Assembly (NCBI RefSeq): GCF_024714495.1
Contig: NZ_JAMZMJ010000001.1
Coordinates: 1,364,001 to 1,428,000, forward strand
DNA length: 64,000 nt
Reading direction: 5' to 3'
Source: Marinoscillum pacificum
Lineage (GTDB): Bacteria > Bacteroidota > Bacteroidia > Cytophagales > Cyclobacteriaceae
Both the position numbers and the translations under genes were made by a program. Below, one piece after another: positions 8,245-18,285 of this stretch. Positions within the stretch are counted from its first letter, which is position 1. The number at the start of each line of letters is the position of its first letter. A model generated the notes under the pieces. That model was given only the letters and a program-made list of their open reading frames with translations. It was not told the origin of the DNA and ran no database searches.

Positions 8245-9297
8245 TTGTTGCAATCAACAATAGCTGAATTGCTCGCACTCAATAGGAAGAACTTTTACAC
8301 ATTCAACACATTAGCACTTGCGCTAATTACCTGCTTATTGTGGTTCAAAAGCTCAGCACCTAATTTCATTTTTTGGCCCGGCGCATACATGCTATCCATT
8401 TGGCTAATGAGTGGTTTGATATTTCAATTACGATCCTCAACTAGCCAAATAAGTAAGACACTTGCACATGGATTCATTTTCACTATTGGACATTGGATTC
8501 TTAGCAGCTTACTCTTGATTTTGCTAGAGCGCTTCTTCAGAATAGAAGAGCATTATCCGCTGACTGGGTTACCAATGCTCATCCGCGAGAATTGGACAAC
8601 CCTTCTGGATGGAATTTTGTGGTTTGCACTGTATCAAATGGCATTTCACCTGCTGGAACTAAAGGCAAAGGCGCATTCCCTTGATGAGCGTATTCATGAT
8701 CTTGAGAAAGAACTTCATCAATCAGATCTTGTCAATTTGCGAAAAGAAATCAACCCACATTTTCTTTTCAATGCCATGAACGGCATTGCTATGAAGGTGC
8801 GTTTAAAAGAAAACAAGACGGCCGTTGCGATGATTGCAGCTCTGAACAATTTATTGAGGTTAAGTCTGAGCAAATCACAAGAGCAATTGATTACTATTCA
8901 GCAAGAGTTGGAATTGCTCGACAACTATCTACTCATTGAAAGACATAGATTTGGAGATCAGGTTCAGGTAACTATTGATTTTCCTGAGGATATTCACACT
9001 CATAAAATACCTGAACTCATCCTTCAACCATTGGTTGAAAATGCATTTAAACATGGCTTAACCCAAAATCAGGAACTTCAGTATATTCGGGTATCCGGAA
9101 GAGTTGTTGATCAAGAAATCATTTTATCGGTATTCAATACAAAGTCTAAGAGTGTCAATTTCAATTTTGCCCGAAGTGGAGTAGGACTTCCAAACATTGT
9201 CCATAGACTGAGAAGAATTTATCAGACCAACTTCAAGTTTCACAGTTTTAATGAAGAGCATGGCATAGCCTTTACCATTACAATTCCCAAACAATGA
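8245..9297 (+). CDS. LytS/YehU-type sensor histidine kinase
   Basis: Up to 350 residues. The N-terminal ~130 residues hold four hydrophobic segments (starting LALALITCLLWF). A short coiled coil (residues ~145-165) leads into the His_kinase domain with the phospho-acceptor in EINPHFLFNAMN (His about 172), and the N-box PLVENAFKHG is in the ATPase domain. The frame has no ATG near its beginning, so initiation must be at a TTG (8245, 8248 or 8269). A TATTTTTG sequence at 8240-8247 resembles a -7 promoter box and would favour the later TTG. The ATGA overlap with the downstream LytTR regulator makes them a two-component pair. Confidence 0.88.
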   Translation: MLQSTIAELLALNRKNFYTFNTLALALITCLLWFKSSAPNFIFWPGAYMLSIWLMSGLIFQLRSSTSQISKTLAHGFIFTIGHWILSSLLLILLERFFRIEEHYPLTGLPMLIRENWTTLLDGILWFALYQMAFHLLELKAKAHSLDERIHDLEKELHQSDLVNLRKEINPHFLFNAMNGIAMKVRLKENKTAVAMIAALNNLLRLSLSKSQEQLITIQQELELLDNYLLIERHRFGDQVQVTIDFPEDIHTHKIPELILQPLVENAFKHGLTQNQELQYIRVSGRVVDQEIILSVFNTKSKSVNFNFARSGVGLPNIVHRLRRIYQTNFKFHSFNEEHGIAFTITIPKQ

Positions 9298-10061
9298 AGA
9301 TCAAGTGCCTTATAGTAGACGATGAAAAATCTGCAAGAGATGGACTGCACCTTTTGTGCTCTGAAAATGCTCAATTAGATGTCGTTGGAATGTGTAAAAA
9401 TGGAGTTGAAGCCATTGATGAAATCAATGCACTCAAGCCTCAACTAGTCCTTCTGGATGTGCAGATGCCAGGTGTTAACGGGTTTGAGGTAATTGCCAGT
9501 ATTCCCGAACCCAAACCCAAAATCATCTTTATTACAGCACATGATCAATTTGCCATCAAAGCATTTGAAGTCAATGCCATTGATTACCTGCTCAAACCAT
9601 TTAGTGATGAGCGTTTTGAACAGGCCATTCACAAGGCCATTCAGCAGATCAATCTAAATCAACAGCAAACTTTAGATGGACTGATCAACCGAAACTTAAC
9701 AGCCTCCGATAACGGATTAAAAATCAACGAAGAAGATCGGTTAGTACTTAAAGTAGACGGATCAATTAAAATCATCAGCAAATCTGAAATTCGCTTCATT
9801 GAAGCATATGATTATTACATCAAAATCTATGTAAAGGATCGGTATTTCATGATTCGAGAAAGTCTAAAGAATATGGAGACCTCACTTGGTCACTTGAAAG
9901 ATTTCATGCGAATTCACAAGTCATACATCGTCAATAAACACTATGTATCCCAGCTTGTGAGAACTTCTCCCACAGAACATGACCTTATTCTCACCACCAA
10001 CGATCAAATCAAAGTAAGCCGCAGTAAAATCAACGAAGTAAAAGACTGGTTATCAGCGTAA
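9294..10061 (+). CDS. LytTR-family response regulator
   Basis: 255 residues: receiver domain (~1-120, acidic DD at 9-10, phospho-acceptor Asp55 in LVLLDVQMPG, Lys in LLKPF) and a C-terminal LytTR DNA-binding domain (~150-250; IRFIEAYDYYIKIYV and FMRIHKSYIVNKHYV). It is translated with the preceding kinase through an ATGA overlap. Within 40 bases of its stop there is a direct repeat with a 21-bp period, upstream of the permease gene, so the permease is the likely target. Confidence 0.93.
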   Translation: MKIKCLIVDDEKSARDGLHLLCSENAQLDVVGMCKNGVEAIDEINALKPQLVLLDVQMPGVNGFEVIASIPEPKPKIIFITAHDQFAIKAFEVNAIDYLLKPFSDERFEQAIHKAIQQINLNQQQTLDGLINRNLTASDNGLKINEEDRLVLKVDGSIKIISKSEIRFIEAYDYYIKIYVKDRYFMIRESLKNMETSLGHLKDFMRIHKSYIVNKHYVSQLVRTSPTEHDLILTTNDQIKVSRSKINEVKDWLSA

Positions 10062-10160: not shown

Positions 10161-12578
10161 ATGTTCAAAAATCACATCCGATTTGCTGTAAGGCTTTTTC
10201 TGAAGGAACGTATCTACTCAATTCTAAATATCATGGGATTGGCATTAGGAATCACCATAGGCATGATCCTGTTGCTATTTCTTCAAAGCGAATTGACCTA
10301 TGATCAGCACTATTCCAAATACGATCAAATTTATCGATTCACCAACCACCTTACAGCTCCTGGTGCAGATTTCAATACAGCTCGATCTTCGCGAAAAATT
10401 GGATCCATCCTAAAAGATGAGCTTCCTGAAGTCATAGAATATGTTCGATTTGCTGGTGTAGGCACACCACTCATTACGGTAGATGAAGATCCAGATACCA
10501 AATTCTATGAAAAGAGAGTTTGGCAAACGGATGCTAATTTCTTTAAAGTATTTGATCATGCGTTTATCTCTGGCAACCCTGAAACGTGTCTTGACGGACC
10601 GGGCAAAATTGTCCTCACCGAATCTATTGCTAAAAAGTATTTTGGAAATGAACCTGCCATCGGCAAAAGACTGACATTGGGTGATGGTGACGTAGAACAC
10701 CGTCAGGTCACTGCGGTTATTTCTGATTTACCTGACAATACACATTTCAAATATGAGATTTTACTCTCTCACATTCCACCTATCGACTGGGGCAGTGATG
10801 ACCCGGAAAGAATTTCTGAAATCTACTGGAATCCAGGATCCTACACTTATTTACTGTTACCAAAAGACTATAACACTGATGATTTTTACGCCAAGTTTCC
10901 AAATGTCTATGATAAAACCTATGCACTATTTGGTAAACGAATCAATGGCAATGTAGACCCTGGCCTTCAACGCATTGATGATATTCACTTCAATTCAGAT
11001 CGTGGTGGAGATGAACCAACTGGCAACATTAATTACGTCTACACTTTTGCCGCTGTGGGCTTGTTCATCATACTGTTAGCTTGCATCAATTACATGAATA
11101 TGGCCACCGCCCGATCTGTGACCAGAACCGGCGAAATGGGAATTAGAAAAGTGCTTGGTTATAGTAGAGCTGCTTTGTTTAGAAGCGTAATGATAGAAGC
11201 ACTCATGATGGCTTTTGTCGCTTTCTTGTTAGCAACAGCCATCACCTTTATCATTCTGGAGGTCACACCATTTAATGACCTGATGAACAAAAACTTAGAG
11301 CTAAATTTCCTATCCAATCCATCATTACTATTAGGTTCTATTTTGATCACGTTGTTCATTGGAATCATTTCAGGAATTTACCCAGCCTTATACATTCCGT
11401 CCGTTCCTGTAGTTACTGCGTTGAAAGGCACGTTTACTGGAGACAAAGCAGGCAGTTTACTTCGGCAGGGATTAATCACTTTGCAGTTTGTTATCAGTTT
11501 GTTTGTTATCATCTGTACCGTGTTGATGGACAAGCAAATATCCTTTGTGCAAAACAAAGACCTTGGCTTTGAGAAGGATCAACTCTTGCTCATAGAAGAA
11601 AGTAGAAAAAGCACAGATAGCCGTGAGGCACTAAAAACAGAGCTTTTAAAAAATTCAAACATTCTCAAAGTAACAAACAGCTATGGTACTCCGGGAATGG
11701 GTAATGAAGGCTCTGTGATGATGGTTGAAACCGACTCTGGGTTCGTACAGCAGCACATGAACATGTACTATGTGGGCAAGGAATACATGGAAACCATGGG
11801 AATTGAGATCATTGCTGGTCGTGGGTTCAATGATGATTCTCAGTATGACATTGATAACGTATTCTTGATTAATGAAGCAGGAGCTAAACAACTTGGTTGG
11901 GGCGAGAATGCTGTTGGTAAGAAAACGAAATACTTCCACAGTGAAAATGAACGAACCATTGTAGGCATCTTCAAAGATTTCCACTACCAATCGCTACACA
12001 ACAAGGTAGAACCCTTGCTCATTGCCAGGCATAGCTCGGCTCATGGACATCTATATGTGAAACTTGGCGCAAAGGATCTAAACGAAACCATCAACTTTAT
12101 TCAAGACAAATGGAGGGAATTTGATGCTAAGAGCCCAATGGAATATAAATTTCTCGATGAAGAGTTTGCGAGACAATATGAGGCTGATTTGACGCAAAAA
12201 AGACTCATATCAATGCTCTCTTACATCTGTATTTTCATTTCTCTGCTAGGATTAATTGGACTATCAGCATTCACAGCAAGCAGAAAAGCCAAAGAAATCA
12301 GTATCAGAAAAGTGTTGGGTGCATCTGTTCCAAGAATCATTCTTCTTTTCTCTAGAAGTTATGTCAAGCTGATCATCATCGCATTCATTATTGCAGTTCC
12401 ACTAGCTGATTACATTATCGTGGAGTGGTTAGCCAACTTTGCCTATCAAATGGATATCAACTGGCTGTATTTCATCATACCAGGGCTTATTGTCCTAGCT
12501 CTCGGGTTACTGACCGTATCTGCTCAAAGCTTACGATCAGCCAAAGCCAATCCAGTAGATGGGCTCCGAAGAGAATAA
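10161..12578 (+). CDS. MacB/FtsX-type ABC transporter permease
   Basis: 805 residues with the double layout usual in Bacteroidota: an N-terminal transmembrane helix (~20-42), a MacB-type periplasmic domain, three transmembrane helices (~290-430, with the motif RTGEMGIRKVLG), a second periplasmic domain, and three C-terminal helices (~690-800, AKEISIRKVLGAS). The closing SAKANPVDGLRRE motif is typical. No ATPase gene is adjacent, so it must use an ATPase encoded elsewhere. Position behind a LytS/LytTR pair and the direct repeat at 10068 suggests induction by that system. The family exports peptides or lipophilic compounds or works mechanically on the envelope; the substrate is unknown. Confidence 0.9.
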   Translation: MFKNHIRFAVRLFLKERIYSILNIMGLALGITIGMILLLFLQSELTYDQHYSKYDQIYRFTNHLTAPGADFNTARSSRKIGSILKDELPEVIEYVRFAGVGTPLITVDEDPDTKFYEKRVWQTDANFFKVFDHAFISGNPETCLDGPGKIVLTESIAKKYFGNEPAIGKRLTLGDGDVEHRQVTAVISDLPDNTHFKYEILLSHIPPIDWGSDDPERISEIYWNPGSYTYLLLPKDYNTDDFYAKFPNVYDKTYALFGKRINGNVDPGLQRIDDIHFNSDRGGDEPTGNINYVYTFAAVGLFIILLACINYMNMATARSVTRTGEMGIRKVLGYSRAALFRSVMIEALMMAFVAFLLATAITFIILEVTPFNDLMNKNLELNFLSNPSLLLGSILITLFIGIISGIYPALYIPSVPVVTALKGTFTGDKAGSLLRQGLITLQFVISLFVIICTVLMDKQISFVQNKDLGFEKDQLLLIEESRKSTDSREALKTELLKNSNILKVTNSYGTPGMGNEGSVMMVETDSGFVQQHMNMYYVGKEYMETMGIEIIAGRGFNDDSQYDIDNVFLINEAGAKQLGWGENAVGKKTKYFHSENERTIVGIFKDFHYQSLHNKVEPLLIARHSSAHGHLYVKLGAKDLNETINFIQDKWREFDAKSPMEYKFLDEEFARQYEADLTQKRLISMLSYICIFISLLGLIGLSAFTASRKAKEISIRKVLGASVPRIILLFSRSYVKLIIIAFIIAVPLADYIIVEWLANFAYQMDINWLYFIIPGLIVLALGLLTVSAQSLRSAKANPVDGLRRE

Positions 12579-13259: not shown

Positions 13260-14501
13260 CTAGTTAAAGGTGATCTGCTCAACATCCTCGAATGGGAAAT
13301 ACATTATTTCACCACCTTTTTTCACTAGTACTCCTTGATTTTTATCTGATACATCCTGTGAATCTCCAAGTAAAAACTTGTCTCCATTATTCAAAGTCAC
13401 AGTACAGTTATCATAGTTTCTTGGAGTTATATTTCTTATATTTTTGAAAGGAATGATCATCTCCACATCATCCAGCATTCCTTGTAACACTTCAAATTGA
13501 TAGGCCTCATCCAGGTCATATATCAGTTCGCCACTAAATTCATCTCCATTTCTAAGTTCTACCGTTCCAGTAATTCTTGGTTGTTTTGAAAAAGAAGAAT
13601 AAGCTGGTCCTGAGTCAGGAGCATCCAAAAAAGTCACCTTTTCAAACTCATCCCATGGAACATCCACTCTACCAATGCCGTCTACTGCAATTATTATGCC
13701 ACGATTCTCATCGTTCACATCATTACTTCCACGTAGCTCCAATTCCCTTCCTGAATTAAGAATTACTACACTTCTGCTACTTCCGTATCGTTCAATTGAT
13801 TTGATTTTTCCAAATGAGATGGACACATCTCCATCTTCTGTATCACCATCGAGTTTGTCCGTGGACACACGCTCATCATGATCCCACTGCACAAATCCTG
13901 TAAATACTCCCTCTGAAGTCTCAACCTTACCATACAGTGGTTCACCAAATTTCTCAGTCAATCTGGATGGAGTTTCTTTAAATTCTATTAGTTCTATTCG
14001 ATCCCAATCAATTTCTATGGTTCCCAATTCAGAATCAACTACTTTAATATCTGTATTGATGTCGTTGTATCCATTACCATCAAGATCATATGTAAGACCA
14101 CTCTGCATGGTTACTTCAGCTCCTTGTCTACGGGTTGGTCTTATGGTTTTAATTTCACCAAATTGGCAAGCAAACTGATGCACAAACTCATTATCGTCAT
14201 CGTCCCAGGTCCAGCTTACGTTTACCCATCCGTTATTTCTTCCAATAAATGTTCTTCTGCGATCCTCTAGTTCTTCTATTTCATCTCTTGAAAGGAAATC
14301 CAGATTTTCATTTTCATCTTTAGAAGCGTTGAACATATCTGTCCAGTAAGCCTCCTCTTTACCCCATCTTAGCGCACCTTCAAAAGTTTTTCCATCAATA
14401 GTAGTCACTCTTCCATACATAAATCCTTGATCCTGGCTGAAAGCCTGGTGGCTAGTCCAAAAAGCCACCAGGAGAGTTGAGTAGGTAAGTAGTTTTTGCA
14501 T
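13260..14501 (-). CDS. Exported three-repeat protein, paralogue 1
   Basis: 413 residues, no recognised family. A cleavable signal peptide (ends AFSQ) precedes three tandem ~110-residue repeats. Each starts G-[RKT]-V-x-T/L-x-x-G-x-x-x-x-G-x-[LV]-x-[WY], as in YGRVTTIDGKTFEGALRW, LYGKVETSEGVFTGFVQW and ITGTVELRNGDEFSGELIY. An acidic DEA/DER segment follows, then an Ile-rich strand, an NDVN-like motif (YNDIN, SNDVNDENRGI, SQDVSDKNQGV), and a closing acidic/aromatic strand (DWDRIELIEF, PWDEFEKVTF, PFEDVEQITF). It is a full-length paralogue of the gene at 16911-18185. Its promoter carries three copies of a direct repeat also found in front of the paralogue, so it is probably controlled by the neighbouring LytTR regulator. 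Confidence 0.8.
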   Translation of the reverse strand: MQKLLTYSTLLVAFWTSHQAFSQDQGFMYGRVTTIDGKTFEGALRWGKEEAYWTDMFNASKDENENLDFLSRDEIEELEDRRRTFIGRNNGWVNVSWTWDDDDNEFVHQFACQFGEIKTIRPTRRQGAEVTMQSGLTYDLDGNGYNDINTDIKVVDSELGTIEIDWDRIELIEFKETPSRLTEKFGEPLYGKVETSEGVFTGFVQWDHDERVSTDKLDGDTEDGDVSISFGKIKSIERYGSSRSVVILNSGRELELRGSNDVNDENRGIIIAVDGIGRVDVPWDEFEKVTFLDAPDSGPAYSSFSKQPRITGTVELRNGDEFSGELIYDLDEAYQFEVLQGMLDDVEMIIPFKNIRNITPRNYDNCTVTLNNGDKFLLGDSQDVSDKNQGVLVKKGGEIMYFPFEDVEQITFN

Positions 14502-14581
14502 TTCCTTTTATTTTGGTTTGTCTTTAGGTTTTTGATGATACTAAAGTGCACCTTTGTTTAAAGGAATAAAACCATATTCTG

Positions 14582-14633
14582 ACGAGTCGGGAACTCTCCT
14601 AACCGAATCGGGATATGCCAGACCGAATCGGAA
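14582..14633 (-). promoter_or_regulatory. Triple direct repeat, candidate LytTR operator
   Basis: Three copies read on the plus strand: ACGAGTCGGGA (14582), ACCGAATCGGGA (14602) and ACCGAATCGGAA (14622). The shared core recurs at 21 and then 20 bp. The repeat lies 81 bases upstream of paralogue 1 and 33 bases upstream of the divergent DinB-like gene. Two similar copies 21 bp apart stand in front of paralogue 2. The spacing fits LytTR-domain binding. Confidence 0.72.
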
Positions 14634-14665
14634 ACAGTCTATTTCAAAAACTCAAAACTCTAACT

Positions 14666-15124
14666 ATGATAAAGACTTTTCAGCTTATCAAAGACACTCG
14701 ACAAAACGTATTGAAACTATTAAGTGAAGGAAATACGGAGAGACTATTCAATATACCAGAACCATTCAATAATCACATTTTCTGGAATGCAGCTCACTTG
14801 ATGGCGACACATCAACTGTTGTTATACACATTCTCCAATTCAAAAGAGCGCCTGAATCAGGAGTTCATTAAAAAATATACAAAAGGCACTACCCCTGATC
14901 AAAAGTTCTATGAGGAAGATTTAGAATTTGTCATCACTCATTTGATCCCTTCGTTTGAAGAATCCATTACTGATTTCCAAGATGGATATTTTGGTGAATA
15001 CAAGCCTCTTCAAACAAGCTTCGGGTCAACAATAAATTCCGTTGAAGAGGCTTTTCAGTACATCGTCCTGCATGAAGCCATGCACTTTGGCCAAATGAAA
15101 ATGATTGAGAAGCTATTGATCTAA
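14666..15124 (+). CDS. DinB-family protein
   Basis: 152 residues of four-helix-bundle type. Candidate metal-binding histidines stand in NHIFWNAAHL and in HEAMHFGQM near the C-terminus, as in DinB/YfiT proteins, which are putative metal-dependent transferases. The reading frame is open from an ATG at 14615, but the ATG at 14666 starts the conserved domain and clears the repeat array, so it is preferred. It diverges from paralogue 1 and its 3' end overlaps the LytTR gene's end by 12 bases on the opposite strand. Confidence 0.78.
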   Translation: MIKTFQLIKDTRQNVLKLLSEGNTERLFNIPEPFNNHIFWNAAHLMATHQLLLYTFSNSKERLNQEFIKKYTKGTTPDQKFYEEDLEFVITHLIPSFEESITDFQDGYFGEYKPLQTSFGSTINSVEEAFQYIVLHEAMHFGQMKMIEKLLI

Positions 15125-15871
15125 CCAACCTTTAAAGTCAGGCGTTTTCTCAGCGCTAATCACAATTTCCAAATCAGAAGCTGGCTCTAATTCCAGCTTT
15201 AATCGACCCTTGAAATAAGGATGAATCTCACTGATGGATCCGAAACTTACGATAAACTGTCTATTAGCACGCATAAACACATCTGGATCTAACTGTTCCT
15301 CCAAAACTTCCAATGTCTGATCCAGTGGAAATTTCTTTCCTTCCTTAGTCACCAGATAAGTAAGTTTATTCTGGCTATAGAAATAGGCAACTTTCTCAAT
15401 AGAAACCGCTACTATTTTTACTCCAGATTTAATAAGGAAACGAGACTTGAAAGACTTTTTCTGATTCTGTATCAGGTCGTATAGACTACCAAAATCCGCA
15501 GGAAACTTGTTATTCGCTTTTCGCTCTTTGAACTTGTCAATGGAAGCAATTAGCTTATCCTTCAGTATTGGTTTTAGCAAATAATCAATACTATTCACTT
15601 CAAAAGCCTTAATAGCATACTGATCATAAGCAGTGGTAAAAATAACTGGTGTATCAATTTCAAGTGAACGGAATAAGTCAAAACTCAATCCATCCAACAA
15701 GCGAATATCACTGATGATCAGATCAGGACTTTCATTATCTTCAAACCATTTTTTGCCTTCATCAATTGATTTCAGCACGCCTACAATAGTAACTTCCTGC
15801 TCAATATCTTTGAGCATAGAAACTAGTCTGTCAGATGCAAGCTGCTCATCTTCCAAGATTAGTAAATCCAT
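15113..15871 (-). CDS. LytTR-family response regulator
   Basis: 252 residues: receiver domain (~1-120, acidic EDE at 7-9, phospho-acceptor Asp55 in LIISDIRLLDG, Lys in YLLKPI) and a LytTR domain (~145-250; VAYFYSQNKLTYLVT, FMRANRQFIVSF). The fourth residue after Asp55 is Leu-Leu rather than Met-Pro, a mild variation. It is the last gene of the operon paralogue 2 - kinase - regulator, 11 bases after the kinase. Matching direct repeats before its own operon and before paralogue 1 point to a small autoregulated regulon. Confidence 0.92.
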   Translation of the reverse strand: MDLLILEDEQLASDRLVSMLKDIEQEVTIVGVLKSIDEGKKWFEDNESPDLIISDIRLLDGLSFDLFRSLEIDTPVIFTTAYDQYAIKAFEVNSIDYLLKPILKDKLIASIDKFKERKANNKFPADFGSLYDLIQNQKKSFKSRFLIKSGVKIVAVSIEKVAYFYSQNKLTYLVTKEGKKFPLDQTLEVLEEQLDPDVFMRANRQFIVSFGSISEIHPYFKGRLKLELEPASDLEIVISAEKTPDFKGWLDQ

Positions 15872-15882
15872 AACAATCCTCT

Positions 15883-16902
15883 TTAAATCTCTTCTATTTC
15901 AATCAAGGGCAATGAGGCTCTAAACACCTCTCCCACTCGATTGATCAATACCTCTTCGTCTGTATAATACTTATACCGAGCCTGAATATTCTTTATCCCT
16001 GTTCCAGACTTGGTTTTCAAGTCTTCAGGTTTTTCATTCACATTATTTTCTATAAAAAGTCTCGCATTCTTGCGATAAATCCGAATTACCAAAGGCTTCT
16101 CTGCCGTAATATTATTGTGCTTTACGGCATTCTCTATCAACATCTGGAGTGTCAATGGAGGCATCATGTACATCATGGATTCATCCTCATCCACCTCTAT
16201 TCTAAACTGTATAAAATCTTGAAACCTCGTTCTGATCAAATAGATATAGGTCTCGATGAAACTCATCTCTTCTTCAAGTGTAATTAAGTCCTCTGCTTTA
16301 GTCAGCAGCATTGTTCTGTACACTTGAGCAAATCTTCCAAGAAACTCTTGCGATTGATCCTTATCCTTATCTATTAATGCTGCCAGGATATTGAGATTAT
16401 TGAATAGAAAATGTGGATCCAGATGACTCTTCAGTGTTTCCAACTGTGAGCTCATGCTTTCCTTCTGGAAGCGTTCCATTTCTATTTCTGAGCGCTGCCA
16501 GTGATTGAGGAAGTGTAAACTGAAATAAATGGAGAAAACAGGAATGATCACAATGGCCCCATAGACATTAGCAACAACTAATTGCTCAACTGTCGGTAAA
16601 AAATCAGTAGCCAAAGTCTTGACGACAAAGTATGCAGCATTGATTACTCCAATAGAAAAAAAGATCCCCAAAACCAGGTGAAGAAAAAATCTACGTCTTC
16701 CAAACCGAGTCCATGGGAAGTAATGATCGAGTGTTTTTGTGATGAACCAATTCCCCAGGTAGAGCAGTATTCCTACTAAAGAAACCGTAGCTAGCGTGTA
16801 ATAGACAATGATTTCAGGTTGAAAACACCATAACAAAACAGCAATCGTTCCGATCAGAACGATTGCTGCAATTAATTTTTTTGACTTAAATATTGAATTC
16901 AC
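15883..16902 (-). CDS. LytS/YehU-type sensor histidine kinase
   Basis: 339 residues starting from GTG. Four transmembrane segments fill the first ~140 residues (starting LIAAIVLIGTIAVLLWCF), with very little outside the membrane, so the signal is probably sensed within the membrane or through a partner. The His_kinase domain has its phospho-acceptor in LDPHFLFNNLN (His about 164), and the ATPase N-box is LIENAVKHN. It lies 8 bases after the three-repeat paralogue 2 and 11 before the LytTR regulator. This suggests that the exported repeat protein and the kinase act in the same pathway. Confidence 0.9.
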   Translation of the reverse strand: MNSIFKSKKLIAAIVLIGTIAVLLWCFQPEIIVYYTLATVSLVGILLYLGNWFITKTLDHYFPWTRFGRRRFFLHLVLGIFFSIGVINAAYFVVKTLATDFLPTVEQLVVANVYGAIVIIPVFSIYFSLHFLNHWQRSEIEMERFQKESMSSQLETLKSHLDPHFLFNNLNILAALIDKDKDQSQEFLGRFAQVYRTMLLTKAEDLITLEEEMSFIETYIYLIRTRFQDFIQFRIEVDEDESMMYMMPPLTLQMLIENAVKHNNITAEKPLVIRIYRKNARLFIENNVNEKPEDLKTKSGTGIKNIQARYKYYTDEEVLINRVGEVFRASLPLIEIEEI

Positions 16903-16910
16903 CAGTTTGT

Positions 16911-18185
16911 TTAATCAAATATGATTTCGGCAATGTCCTCCCACTTCACATATCGCCCCCTATCATCCCTAGACTCAAAAATAAGAAGTCCATCGTTATG
17001 ATTATCTACATCTCGTGCATCTCCTAAAAGTAACATTTCACCACTTCTTAACTCTACTTGACTATACGCGTAATTTCTAGGAATGATTCTTTTTACGTGA
17101 CGAAGGGTAACTTCATATTCTACATCATCATCTTTAGCATCTAACGTCTCTATTTCCCACTCTTCATCCAAGTCATAGATGATTTTCCCTTTGATTTCTT
17201 CATTTCTCAAGGTCACCACCTTACCAAATAGACCTTTTGGTGTAGCATATGATGTGTAAGAATTTCCACTAGTAGTAGGTGTTTCAAAGGTTACTTGCTC
17301 AAAGTATTTCCATGGAATATCCACTCTACCCATTCCAGGGACATCAACAATGATTCCTCTATTTTCGGAGTTAACATCATTAGATCCTACCAGATATAGT
17401 TTGCGACCACTTTTCAGTTCCACATCAGACCCATTTCGATACCTGGAGATGCTCTTAATTTGATTAAATGCAAAGGACACATCTGCTCCATCTTCAGTAT
17501 CACCATCCAATTTATCATCTCCCACACGCTCATCGTGATCCCACTGCACATAGCCTACAAAAGTTCCTTTTCTCAATGTTTCTACTTTTCCATAAATGGG
17601 AGCTGCTTCTTTTACATTCAGAGATTTAGGAGTGGCCATGAAGTCTACTCGCTCTATCCGATCCCAATCAATCCCGAGCTTACCAAGTTCATCATCATAT
17701 ACTTGAATCTCAGCACCTACATCATTATAGCCTTGTCCACTTAAATGATAGGTCAACCCATTCTTTAGTGTCAAATCCACATAGCCACGTTTTACATTCT
17801 CTATAGATTTGATATCACCAAATTGACAAGTGAATTGATGACGAGAAGAGATATTATCTGACCAAATGCTGCTAAAGTCCCAATTGAAATTTTCCCAATC
17901 GAAGCCTTTACTACTAGATCGCTGACGATACTCTGCATGCTTGCTCTCTCCAGTCTTAGCTGCATTGAAGTAATTATGCCAAAAGGCTTCTTCGTTGCCC
18001 CATCGCAATCTACCTTGATAGACTTTACGATCCACTGTAGTTACTTTGCCATACATATACCCCTGTGCATTCTGGGCCTTTAGCTCTTGAAGCACAATCA
18101 GAAAAGCAATCACATTGCCTACCACTAGTAATATAATCCTCTTATTCTTCATCATCCAACGATATACATGGTTACCTGACTTCAT
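16911..18185 (-). CDS. Exported three-repeat protein, paralogue 2
   Basis: 424 residues from the first ATG; ATGs at codons 11 and 12 would give a more normal signal peptide (hydrophobic run ending LKAQ). It has the same architecture as paralogue 1: three ~110-residue repeats opening MYGKVTTVDRKVYQGRLRW, IYGKVETLRKGTFVGYVQW and LFGKVVTLRNEEIKGKIIY. Each has the NDV/RDV motif (YNDVGAEI, SNDVNSENRGI, ARDVDNHNDGL). The second repeat shares WDHDERV and KLDGDTEDG almost word for word with paralogue 1. It is first in an operon with a LytS-type kinase and LytTR regulator. The family is not recognised; it could be a sensed envelope component or the system's main output. Confidence 0.8.
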   Translation of the reverse strand: MKSGNHVYRWMMKNKRIILLVVGNVIAFLIVLQELKAQNAQGYMYGKVTTVDRKVYQGRLRWGNEEAFWHNYFNAAKTGESKHAEYRQRSSSKGFDWENFNWDFSSIWSDNISSRHQFTCQFGDIKSIENVKRGYVDLTLKNGLTYHLSGQGYNDVGAEIQVYDDELGKLGIDWDRIERVDFMATPKSLNVKEAAPIYGKVETLRKGTFVGYVQWDHDERVGDDKLDGDTEDGADVSFAFNQIKSISRYRNGSDVELKSGRKLYLVGSNDVNSENRGIIVDVPGMGRVDIPWKYFEQVTFETPTTSGNSYTSYATPKGLFGKVVTLRNEEIKGKIIYDLDEEWEIETLDAKDDDVEYEVTLRHVKRIIPRNYAYSQVELRSGEMLLLGDARDVDNHNDGLLIFESRDDRGRYVKWEDIAEIIFD

Positions 18186-18252
18186 AAACCCAAATCTGGG
18201 AAAATGGATGCTTAAATATAAGAGAAGCTACCCTCACCCGGTAATATACCTC

Positions 18253-18285
18253 ACCGAAACAGGAAGGAGTCTTACCGAAACGGAC
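18253..18285 (-). promoter_or_regulatory. Double direct repeat, candidate LytTR operator
   Basis: ACCGAAACAGGA (18253-18264) and ACCGAAACGGAC (18274-18285) recur with a 21-bp period, 68 bases upstream of paralogue 2. The motif matches the array at 14582-14633 (ACCGAATCGGGA), so both promoters probably bind the same regulator. The divergent gene at 18340 shares this region. Confidence 0.7.

Follow-up and report, generated by a model that had tools for sequence, protein, structure and literature searches.

What does the LytTR response regulator of a small two-component system in Marinoscillum pacificum control, and what part do the paralogous repeat proteins on either side of it play? The system lies in a 64,000-nt stretch of contig C11 of the 6.40 Mb genome; this whole stretch is called the window here, and all coordinates are positions in it. 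On the minus strand the operon P2-HK-RR encodes P2, a three-repeat protein of 424 aa that is probably exported (16911..18185), the sensor kinase HK (15883..16902) and the response regulator RR, with a receiver and a LytTR DNA-binding domain (15113..15871). P1 (13260..14501, minus strand), a P2 paralogue of 413 aa with three beta repeats and likewise of predicted export, is encoded 3' of the regulator. From the sequence of the locus and its relatives we conclude that RR probably activates both promoters, that of its own operon and that of P1. This regulon claim is well supported by computation: the operators at a 21-bp period are conserved, their spacing to the promoter is fixed, the genome has only two strong sites, and there is co-occurrence with the kinase.

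Tandem boxes upstream of P1 and P2

Read on the genes' own strand, the box is YCCGWTTCRGT, 11 nt long, and it recurs at a period of 20-21 bp 5' of both P1 and P2. Upstream of P1 stand box a (TCCGATTCGGT, 16.0 bits, 14622..14632), box b (CCCGATTCGGT, 17.7 bits, 14602..14612) and the more divergent box c (CCCGACTCGTC, 13.3 bits, 14581..14591), with spacings of 20 bp from a to b and 21 bp from b to c. Upstream of P2, box a (TCCGTTTCGGT, 15.3 bits, 18274..18284) and box b (CCTGTTTCGGT, 13.3 bits, 18253..18263) are 21 bp apart; all five lie on the minus strand. The core of the box, CCGATTCGG, is nearly palindromic. Direct repeats at 20-21 bp upstream of both paralogues had been noticed in an earlier reading of this DNA (the sequence-only reading), and they are present: when the 250 bp in question were shuffled 300 times, a direct repeat of this quality at a lag of 20-22 appeared with P 0.003 for P1 and 0.007 for P2. 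A motif scan of the genome found the pair pattern ACCGAAWCNGG-n9-10-ACCGAAWC at two places, the P1 and P2 promoters, and nowhere in a backwards-read control.

LytTR operators are described in PMC4847170 as two repeats of 9-11 nt separated by a spacer of 11-13 nt. The boxes of P1 and P2 fit this layout, with a 9-nt core at a 21-bp period leaving a 12-nt spacer; the first P1 pair is set at 20 bp. A DinB-type gene lies on the opposite strand between RR and P1, and the longest form of its open reading frame (ORF), 14615-15124, has a start that falls within the P1 operator; translation more likely begins at an internal ATG, at 14666. The same repeats stand 5' of P1 in the genus-mate locus L072, where DinB is absent, and we therefore assigned the repeats to P1 and not to DinB.

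Conservation of the boxes and their promoter spacing

The repeat protein family is patchy in distribution: members were found in 9 of the 59 genomes of close relatives, in 30 of 390 from the order and in 5 of 395 from the phylum, with the own genome included in every count. The promoter set consisted of 75 repeat genes, namely 73 from 50 loci (13 + 37) and the window's two. As controls we used 481 other ORFs of at least 200 residues from the same loci, which were called mechanically and are in some cases operon-internal. The sequence CCCGWTTCRG in gene orientation precedes 33 of the 75 repeat genes vs a single control ORF; in the opposite orientation it precedes one repeat gene and five controls. 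For a held-out test, a matrix derived from the window genus only (15 half-sites) was applied to the 67 regions outside the genus. Tandems at exactly 21 bp were found in 16 of these 67 regions vs none of the 481 controls, and any other distance between 12 and 44 yielded at most 3. Single boxes of at least 8 bits occurred on the forward strand of 37 and the reverse strand of 14 held-out regions; the controls gave 34 and 34 of 481. The repeats are conserved in the two-copy lineage and in some single-copy lineages, not in all carriers.

The -7 element of Bacteroidota is given in PMC7366714 as TAnnTTTG. When each promoter was anchored at its best box, a step blind to TTTG, the core of this element, a TTTG started exactly 68 bp 3' of the box in 32 of 60 anchored promoters (from the 75 regions). 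The next commonest offset, 47, is one repeat closer and was seen in 6 of the 60. The held-out regions behave alike: 38 of 67 have a box of at least 8 bits by the window-genus matrix, 29 of these 38 have TTTG at exactly 68 bp, and after near relatives were collapsed the spacing was kept in 16 of 22. In the window, the candidate P2 -7 element TATATTTA (18213..18220, minus strand) puts TTTA 68 bp from box a and 47 from box b, which is the exact spacing. The candidate P1 -7 region CACTTTAG (14541..14548, minus strand) puts TTTA 67 bp from box b and 46 from box c, one base short. In autoregulated LytTR systems, according to PMC6193735, the repeats often lie about 10 bp upstream of the -35 region. 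Known LytTR activators use just such a layout, a tandem held in one helical phase 5' of the core promoter, which is itself predicted here.

Tandem sites across genomes

A tandem model of 32 positions was built from 33 sites, both window sites among them, and scored 150 of 1650 first-look candidates (150 per genome), so that weak sites may be missed. In the own genome it gave just two matches at E<=1, the P1 and P2 promoters, at 5.0e-4 and 5.3e-4. The genome is without strong further tandem sites, and the claim covers strong sites only. Over 29 genomes, 8 of which have the repeat protein, the model recovered repeat-gene promoters in 6; in genomes without the repeat protein the best E ranged from 0.03 upward. 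Matches in G015:C21 and G007:C2, both inside coding sequence, were set aside as chance.

The kinase, the regulator and their link to the repeat gene

The operon is as the sequence-only reading had described it, with P2 at the head of a kinase and a LytTR regulator: the ORFs and strands agree, the P2 stop is 8 bp from the HK start, and 11 bp separate HK from RR. By crude hydropathy HK has about four membrane helices at its N terminus, joined by short loops; it also carries His_kinase (PF06580, 2.5e-20 in a Pfam scan). The 5TM-LYT sensor region is the defining feature of strict LytS kinases, and 5TM-LYT was not among the Pfam matches of HK at E<=1. The LytS-type kinase of the earlier reading is therefore not LytS in the strict sense. 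RR matches Response_reg (PF00072, 1.9e-12) and LytTR (PF04397, 3.9e-19) in the same kind of scan. Its top NCBIfam models, BtsR (93 of 246 bits) and LytR (82 of 375 bits), are far under their cut-offs.

Among the 75 repeat genes, 41 sit directly before a kinase. All 40 triad kinases in the fetched loci have a repeat gene 5' within 194 bp and a regulator 3' at no more than 653 bp, in most cases at much shorter distances, a neighbourhood that is biased since the loci were chosen for the repeat gene. As a less biased test, a kinase profile was run over the 59 close genomes; its training set was 12 triad kinases, those of the window and of two genus-mates among them (three from the 59-genome set). 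It scored 381-547 bits in all 9 genomes with the repeat protein, own included, vs at most 273 elsewhere, and a triad-type kinase at that score is absent from the 50 genomes without the repeat protein.

Some repeat genes are orphans, and the presence of the kinase in genomes with a boxed orphan was a prediction that could have failed. In G798 and G799, where the boxed orphan is a P1 (L012 and L015), the kinase is encoded elsewhere (425 and 422 bits), preceded by a repeat gene and followed by a regulator, and G015, with the boxed orphan L074, has the triad kinase at 452 bits. In the six genomes with the orphans L091, L108, L103, L104, L105 and L106 no kinase scored above 222 bits, and five of these orphans, all but L104, have no forward box of at least 8 bits. 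Orphan L107 lies at a contig end, and its genome was outside the kinase test; a 27-residue family fragment in G478 was outside the fetched set. In the regulator tree (window and fetched loci) 41 triad regulators fall on one side of a branch vs 15 paralogues on the other, with a weak support of 51. Regular-expression counts of the kinase H-box and receiver motifs (33 of 41 and 29 of 41) vary with the pattern chosen and carry no weight here.

The glycosyltransferase flank had no match at threshold in G001 and G005, so that no empty site was visible, and the G002 copy is on another contig. The orphan repeat genes L103 and L105, each from a distant genome of the phylum, are both neighbours of mutS.

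Exceptions among the relatives

Several observations weigh against the reading of RR as the activator of both promoters. The 11 distant single-copy triads L092-L102 have kinase and regulator, and none of them has a forward box of at least 8 bits by the window-genus matrix. An unsupervised search for 20-22 bp direct repeats found nothing unusual in 10 of the 11, the exception being L102 with an A/T-rich repeat stretch (P 0.000); in L094 and L097 one sequence that resembles the box stands at the usual position, near -76. In these triads either the operator has drifted or the wiring is different. Conservation in relatives that carry the operon, expected if the sequence-only reading was right, thus appears in the held-out tandems and is missing from these triads.

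Within Saprospiraceae some of the promoters are weak. The P1 promoters of L010 and L013 are without a box, and that of L011 has one by matrix only, at 9.4 bits; the P2 promoters of L010, L011 and L013 match poorly at 1.6 bits, and those of L130 and L131 are without a strict box. The tandem model misses the repeat-gene promoters of G013 and G045, and all six genomes in which it recovered them had supplied training sites. It also finds a third, weaker tandem in the genus-mate G003 (E 0.025), 5' of an ORF for an FtsX/MacB-like permease (L121, G003:C17:90500-95500, site 2543-2572), with no TTTG at +68 and a TTTA at +69; the permease is a possible extra target. Orphan L104 has a box of 9.0 bits in a genome without the kinase, and that box is not at the 68-bp spacing. 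The unsupervised repeat search found a stretch at P 0.007 in L104 and nothing notable among the other orphans. Finally, repeat proteins do occur in genomes without the triad kinase and hence are able to work without it.

Family and predicted fold of the repeat proteins

P1 and P2 are 47% identical. A profile comparison of the three repeats, with boundaries set by hand, gave 98.5% for R1-R2, 97.6% for R1-R3 and 99.4% for R2-R3, in agreement with the earlier view of two exported paralogues with three tandem repeats. The repeat length of about 110 residues stated there is right for R2 (~107) and R3 (~105) and wrong for R1 (~149), part of which is a low-confidence insert in the structure model (residues 88-105). 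A simple hydropathy test found an N-terminal hydrophobic segment ahead of repeat 1 in 74 of 75 family proteins, and from this segment we infer that P1 and P2 are exported.

P1 and P2 have no family in Pfam or NCBIfam. Sequence searches of the PDB gave a single match at E 0.41 for the whole-protein profile, no convincing relative, and none at E<=10 for the repeat 2 profile; in PHROGs P1 had a single weak match (0.0036), of unknown function. Scattered Pfam matches of family members (FERM_C, YcxB, LytTR and others, best 2.6e-5) were dismissed because the folds differ among them, and we took them as shared beta patterns. The sequence-only reading did not recognise the repeat type, and as far as these searches reach it is indeed new to them. 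Judged from the open-access literature and from Pfam, NCBIfam and PHROGs, the protein family is apparently undescribed.

The structure model of P1 has a mean pLDDT of 86.9 and a pTM of 0.83. Helices of at least four residues are predicted only in the signal segment, the R1 insert and a short turn at 301-304, and the remainder is made up of beta repeats. Repeat 2 modelled alone (pLDDT 91.4, pTM 0.85) has ten strands. When a single repeat was compared with solved structures, four ImpE entries ranked first, among them TagJ/HsiE1 (4uqy; Z 7.9, rmsd 2.4 over 95 residues) and VPA1032 (1zbp; Z 6.9), a range in which a structural Z below 8 can reflect merely a common arrangement. The next non-ImpE matches were LytTR domains at Z 4.6 over about 60 residues and Sm-like proteins at about 3.5. 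Foldseek matched the repeat to ImpE at probability 1.00 and an E of just 0.02. The predicted fold of the single repeat may thus resemble the ImpE fold of TagJ/HsiE1.

Both HsiE1 and VPA1032 are assigned to the ImpE family in PMC4239648, which also describes a groove beside the ImpE barrel of HsiE1 that binds the N terminus of HsiB1. Because this groove binds a peptide, the analogy suggests that the repeats may bind peptides or proteins. TagJ/HsiE1 is a type VI secretion accessory protein, and the possible likeness lies in the predicted repeat fold. In contrast to it, P1 and P2 have no ImpE sequence match, hold three tandem copies within one exported protein, show no N-terminal TPR domain in the P1 model and are surrounded by no visible secretion context. 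A scan of 26 family members against Pfam listed 20 families at E<=1, and ImpE was none of them. A search of the own genome with PF07024 found nothing, but the controls gave nothing either. A hint of the envelope comes from six of the 11 single-copy triads L092-L102, in which the ORF after the regulator is an OMP_b-brl_3 barrel: L093, L094, L096, L097, L099 and L100 have there an outer membrane protein of about 920 residues with OMP_b-brl_3 and CarboxypepD_reg.

In the protein tree, whose root is arbitrary and whose deep forks have moderate support, 26 genes that precede a kinase form one group (support 83). The 24 genes that follow a regulator, together with six orphans, make up a second group of 30 rows (support 92), and the other 15 pre-kinase genes, without a second copy in the fetched stretch, fall outside both. 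The simplest story that the sequences suggest is an ancestral triad of repeat gene, kinase and regulator, in which a later duplication would have placed P1 after the regulator. At G013:C109:79925-80229, 3' of the regulator, a second repeat gene is present in fragments and with a stop, apparently a decayed P1 copy.

Proposed mechanism and alternatives

We propose that P2-HK-RR and P1 form a single regulatory unit. The membrane kinase HK, judged by its domains, would phosphorylate RR. RR would then bind the tandem 11-nt boxes at their 20-21 bp period, about 47, 68 and sometimes 89 bp upstream of the -7 TTTG or TTTA, and from that position it would activate transcription. The two strong targets of RR in this genome would be its own operon, which makes a positive loop, and P1. 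The sequence-only reading is supported in part. Its LytTR regulon is well backed by the conserved operators, the promoter phase, the rarity of the sites and the kinase co-occurrence, with repeat protein and kinase found together in 9 of 59 genomes; an envelope stress as the signal, and repeat proteins that are outputs only, are conjectural.

The role of P2 is the less certain part. Because every genome in which the triad kinase was found also has the repeat protein, and the kinase gene directly follows the repeat gene, the P2 type may take part in periplasmic signalling as a sensor partner or a feedback element, with P1 as a second copy. That P2 helps the kinase to sense is put forward tentatively, at somewhat below an even chance. 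P2 would then do the sensing or give feedback in the periplasm for a kinase that lacks a large sensor domain, and would also be the main product of the system; its ImpE-like barrels might bind a peptide or protein of the envelope and in this way signal the condition of the envelope. If this is true, the circuit is closed on itself and yields more of its own sensor, plus the duplicate P1.

The strongest rival accepts the regulation and takes the repeat proteins as plain outputs at the envelope or surface, with no part in sensing. P1 has the same boxes as P2 yet stands after the regulator, and orphan repeat copies are present in six genomes without a triad-type kinase, both of which would be natural for a simple output. 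On the other hand, a repeat gene is directly 5' of every triad kinase, in loci picked for that gene, and no triad-type kinase was found without the repeat protein in 59 genomes, which is co-inheritance and not proof of contact. We regard plain outputs as a serious contender that still falls short of an even chance.

It is unlikely that the boxes are bound by another factor, be it a different LytTR regulator or another DNA-binding protein, with the neighbouring two-component system as a mere target. Seven further regulators of the genome do resemble RR at E<=1e-30, a near-palindromic core would be superfluous for a direct-repeat binder, and the reverse-strand boxes in 14 of 67 held-out regions point the same way. 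However, box presence mostly tracks the kinase across genomes, with L104 as the one exception, and also tracks a subclade of the RR tree. Other related regulators are also present in the genus-mates G001 and G005, in which neither triad kinase nor repeat protein was found and no tandem is better than an E of 0.11.

Autorepression by response regulators is common, and RR might repress both promoters instead of activating them. We think this rather improbable, as the boxes stand 5' of the promoter in a fixed phase and do not cover it, and characterised LytTR sites of such a layout activate, as described for YpdB (PMC4847170) and for LytTR regulatory systems (LRS; PMC6193735). That the repeats are functionless, by chance or as copied ancestry of a duplicated promoter, is hardly credible and already contradicted: P1 and P2 are paralogous, so upstream DNA could have been copied, but the DNA between the boxes differs by eye while the boxes and their distance to TTTG persist, and the spacing is exact across genera and in both gene copies.

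Comparison with known LytTR systems

The activating unit proposed here resembles YpdA/YpdB and BtsS/BtsR of E. coli in having a kinase (LytS-like in those systems), a LytTR regulator and very few targets. The targets of YpdB and BtsR are transporters, whereas here they would be exported repeat proteins, one of which leads the regulator's own operon; HK, moreover, has no reported strict LytS sensor domain (Pfam, E<=1). The YpdB site, given in PMC4847170 as GGCATTTCAT twice at a 21-bp period, shares with the P1 and P2 boxes the direct repeat of about 10 nt and its period, and differs in sequence. The LRS of Streptococcus mutans and others consist, according to PMC6193735, of a LytTR regulator and a membrane inhibitor. 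They are alike in the direct repeats just upstream of their own operon promoter, as with the P2 boxes 68 and 47 bp from the TTTA of the predicted promoter, and unlike in that the unit here includes a kinase and an exported partner, and its regulator has a receiver domain. The system would work like YpdAB or an autoregulated LytTR unit; judged from the open-access literature and the family libraries named above, its closed wiring and its protein family look new.

LytTR regulators are numerous in these genomes, yet in the open-access literature we found none of Cytophagales with an assigned operator. This case offers a candidate LytTR operator with an exact promoter geometry, conserved enough for direct testing. 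It also brings out an apparently undescribed exported family, for which a fold is predicted and which goes with one kinase lineage; its function is testable by a reporter with a very small regulon.

Neighbouring genes

A second kinase-LytTR pair and a MacB/FtsX-like permease that directly follows it (window 8245-10061 and 10161-12578) adjoin the unit. The same second kinase-LytTR and permease neighbours are present in L003, and L004 has the regulator and the permease as far as its stored end reaches.

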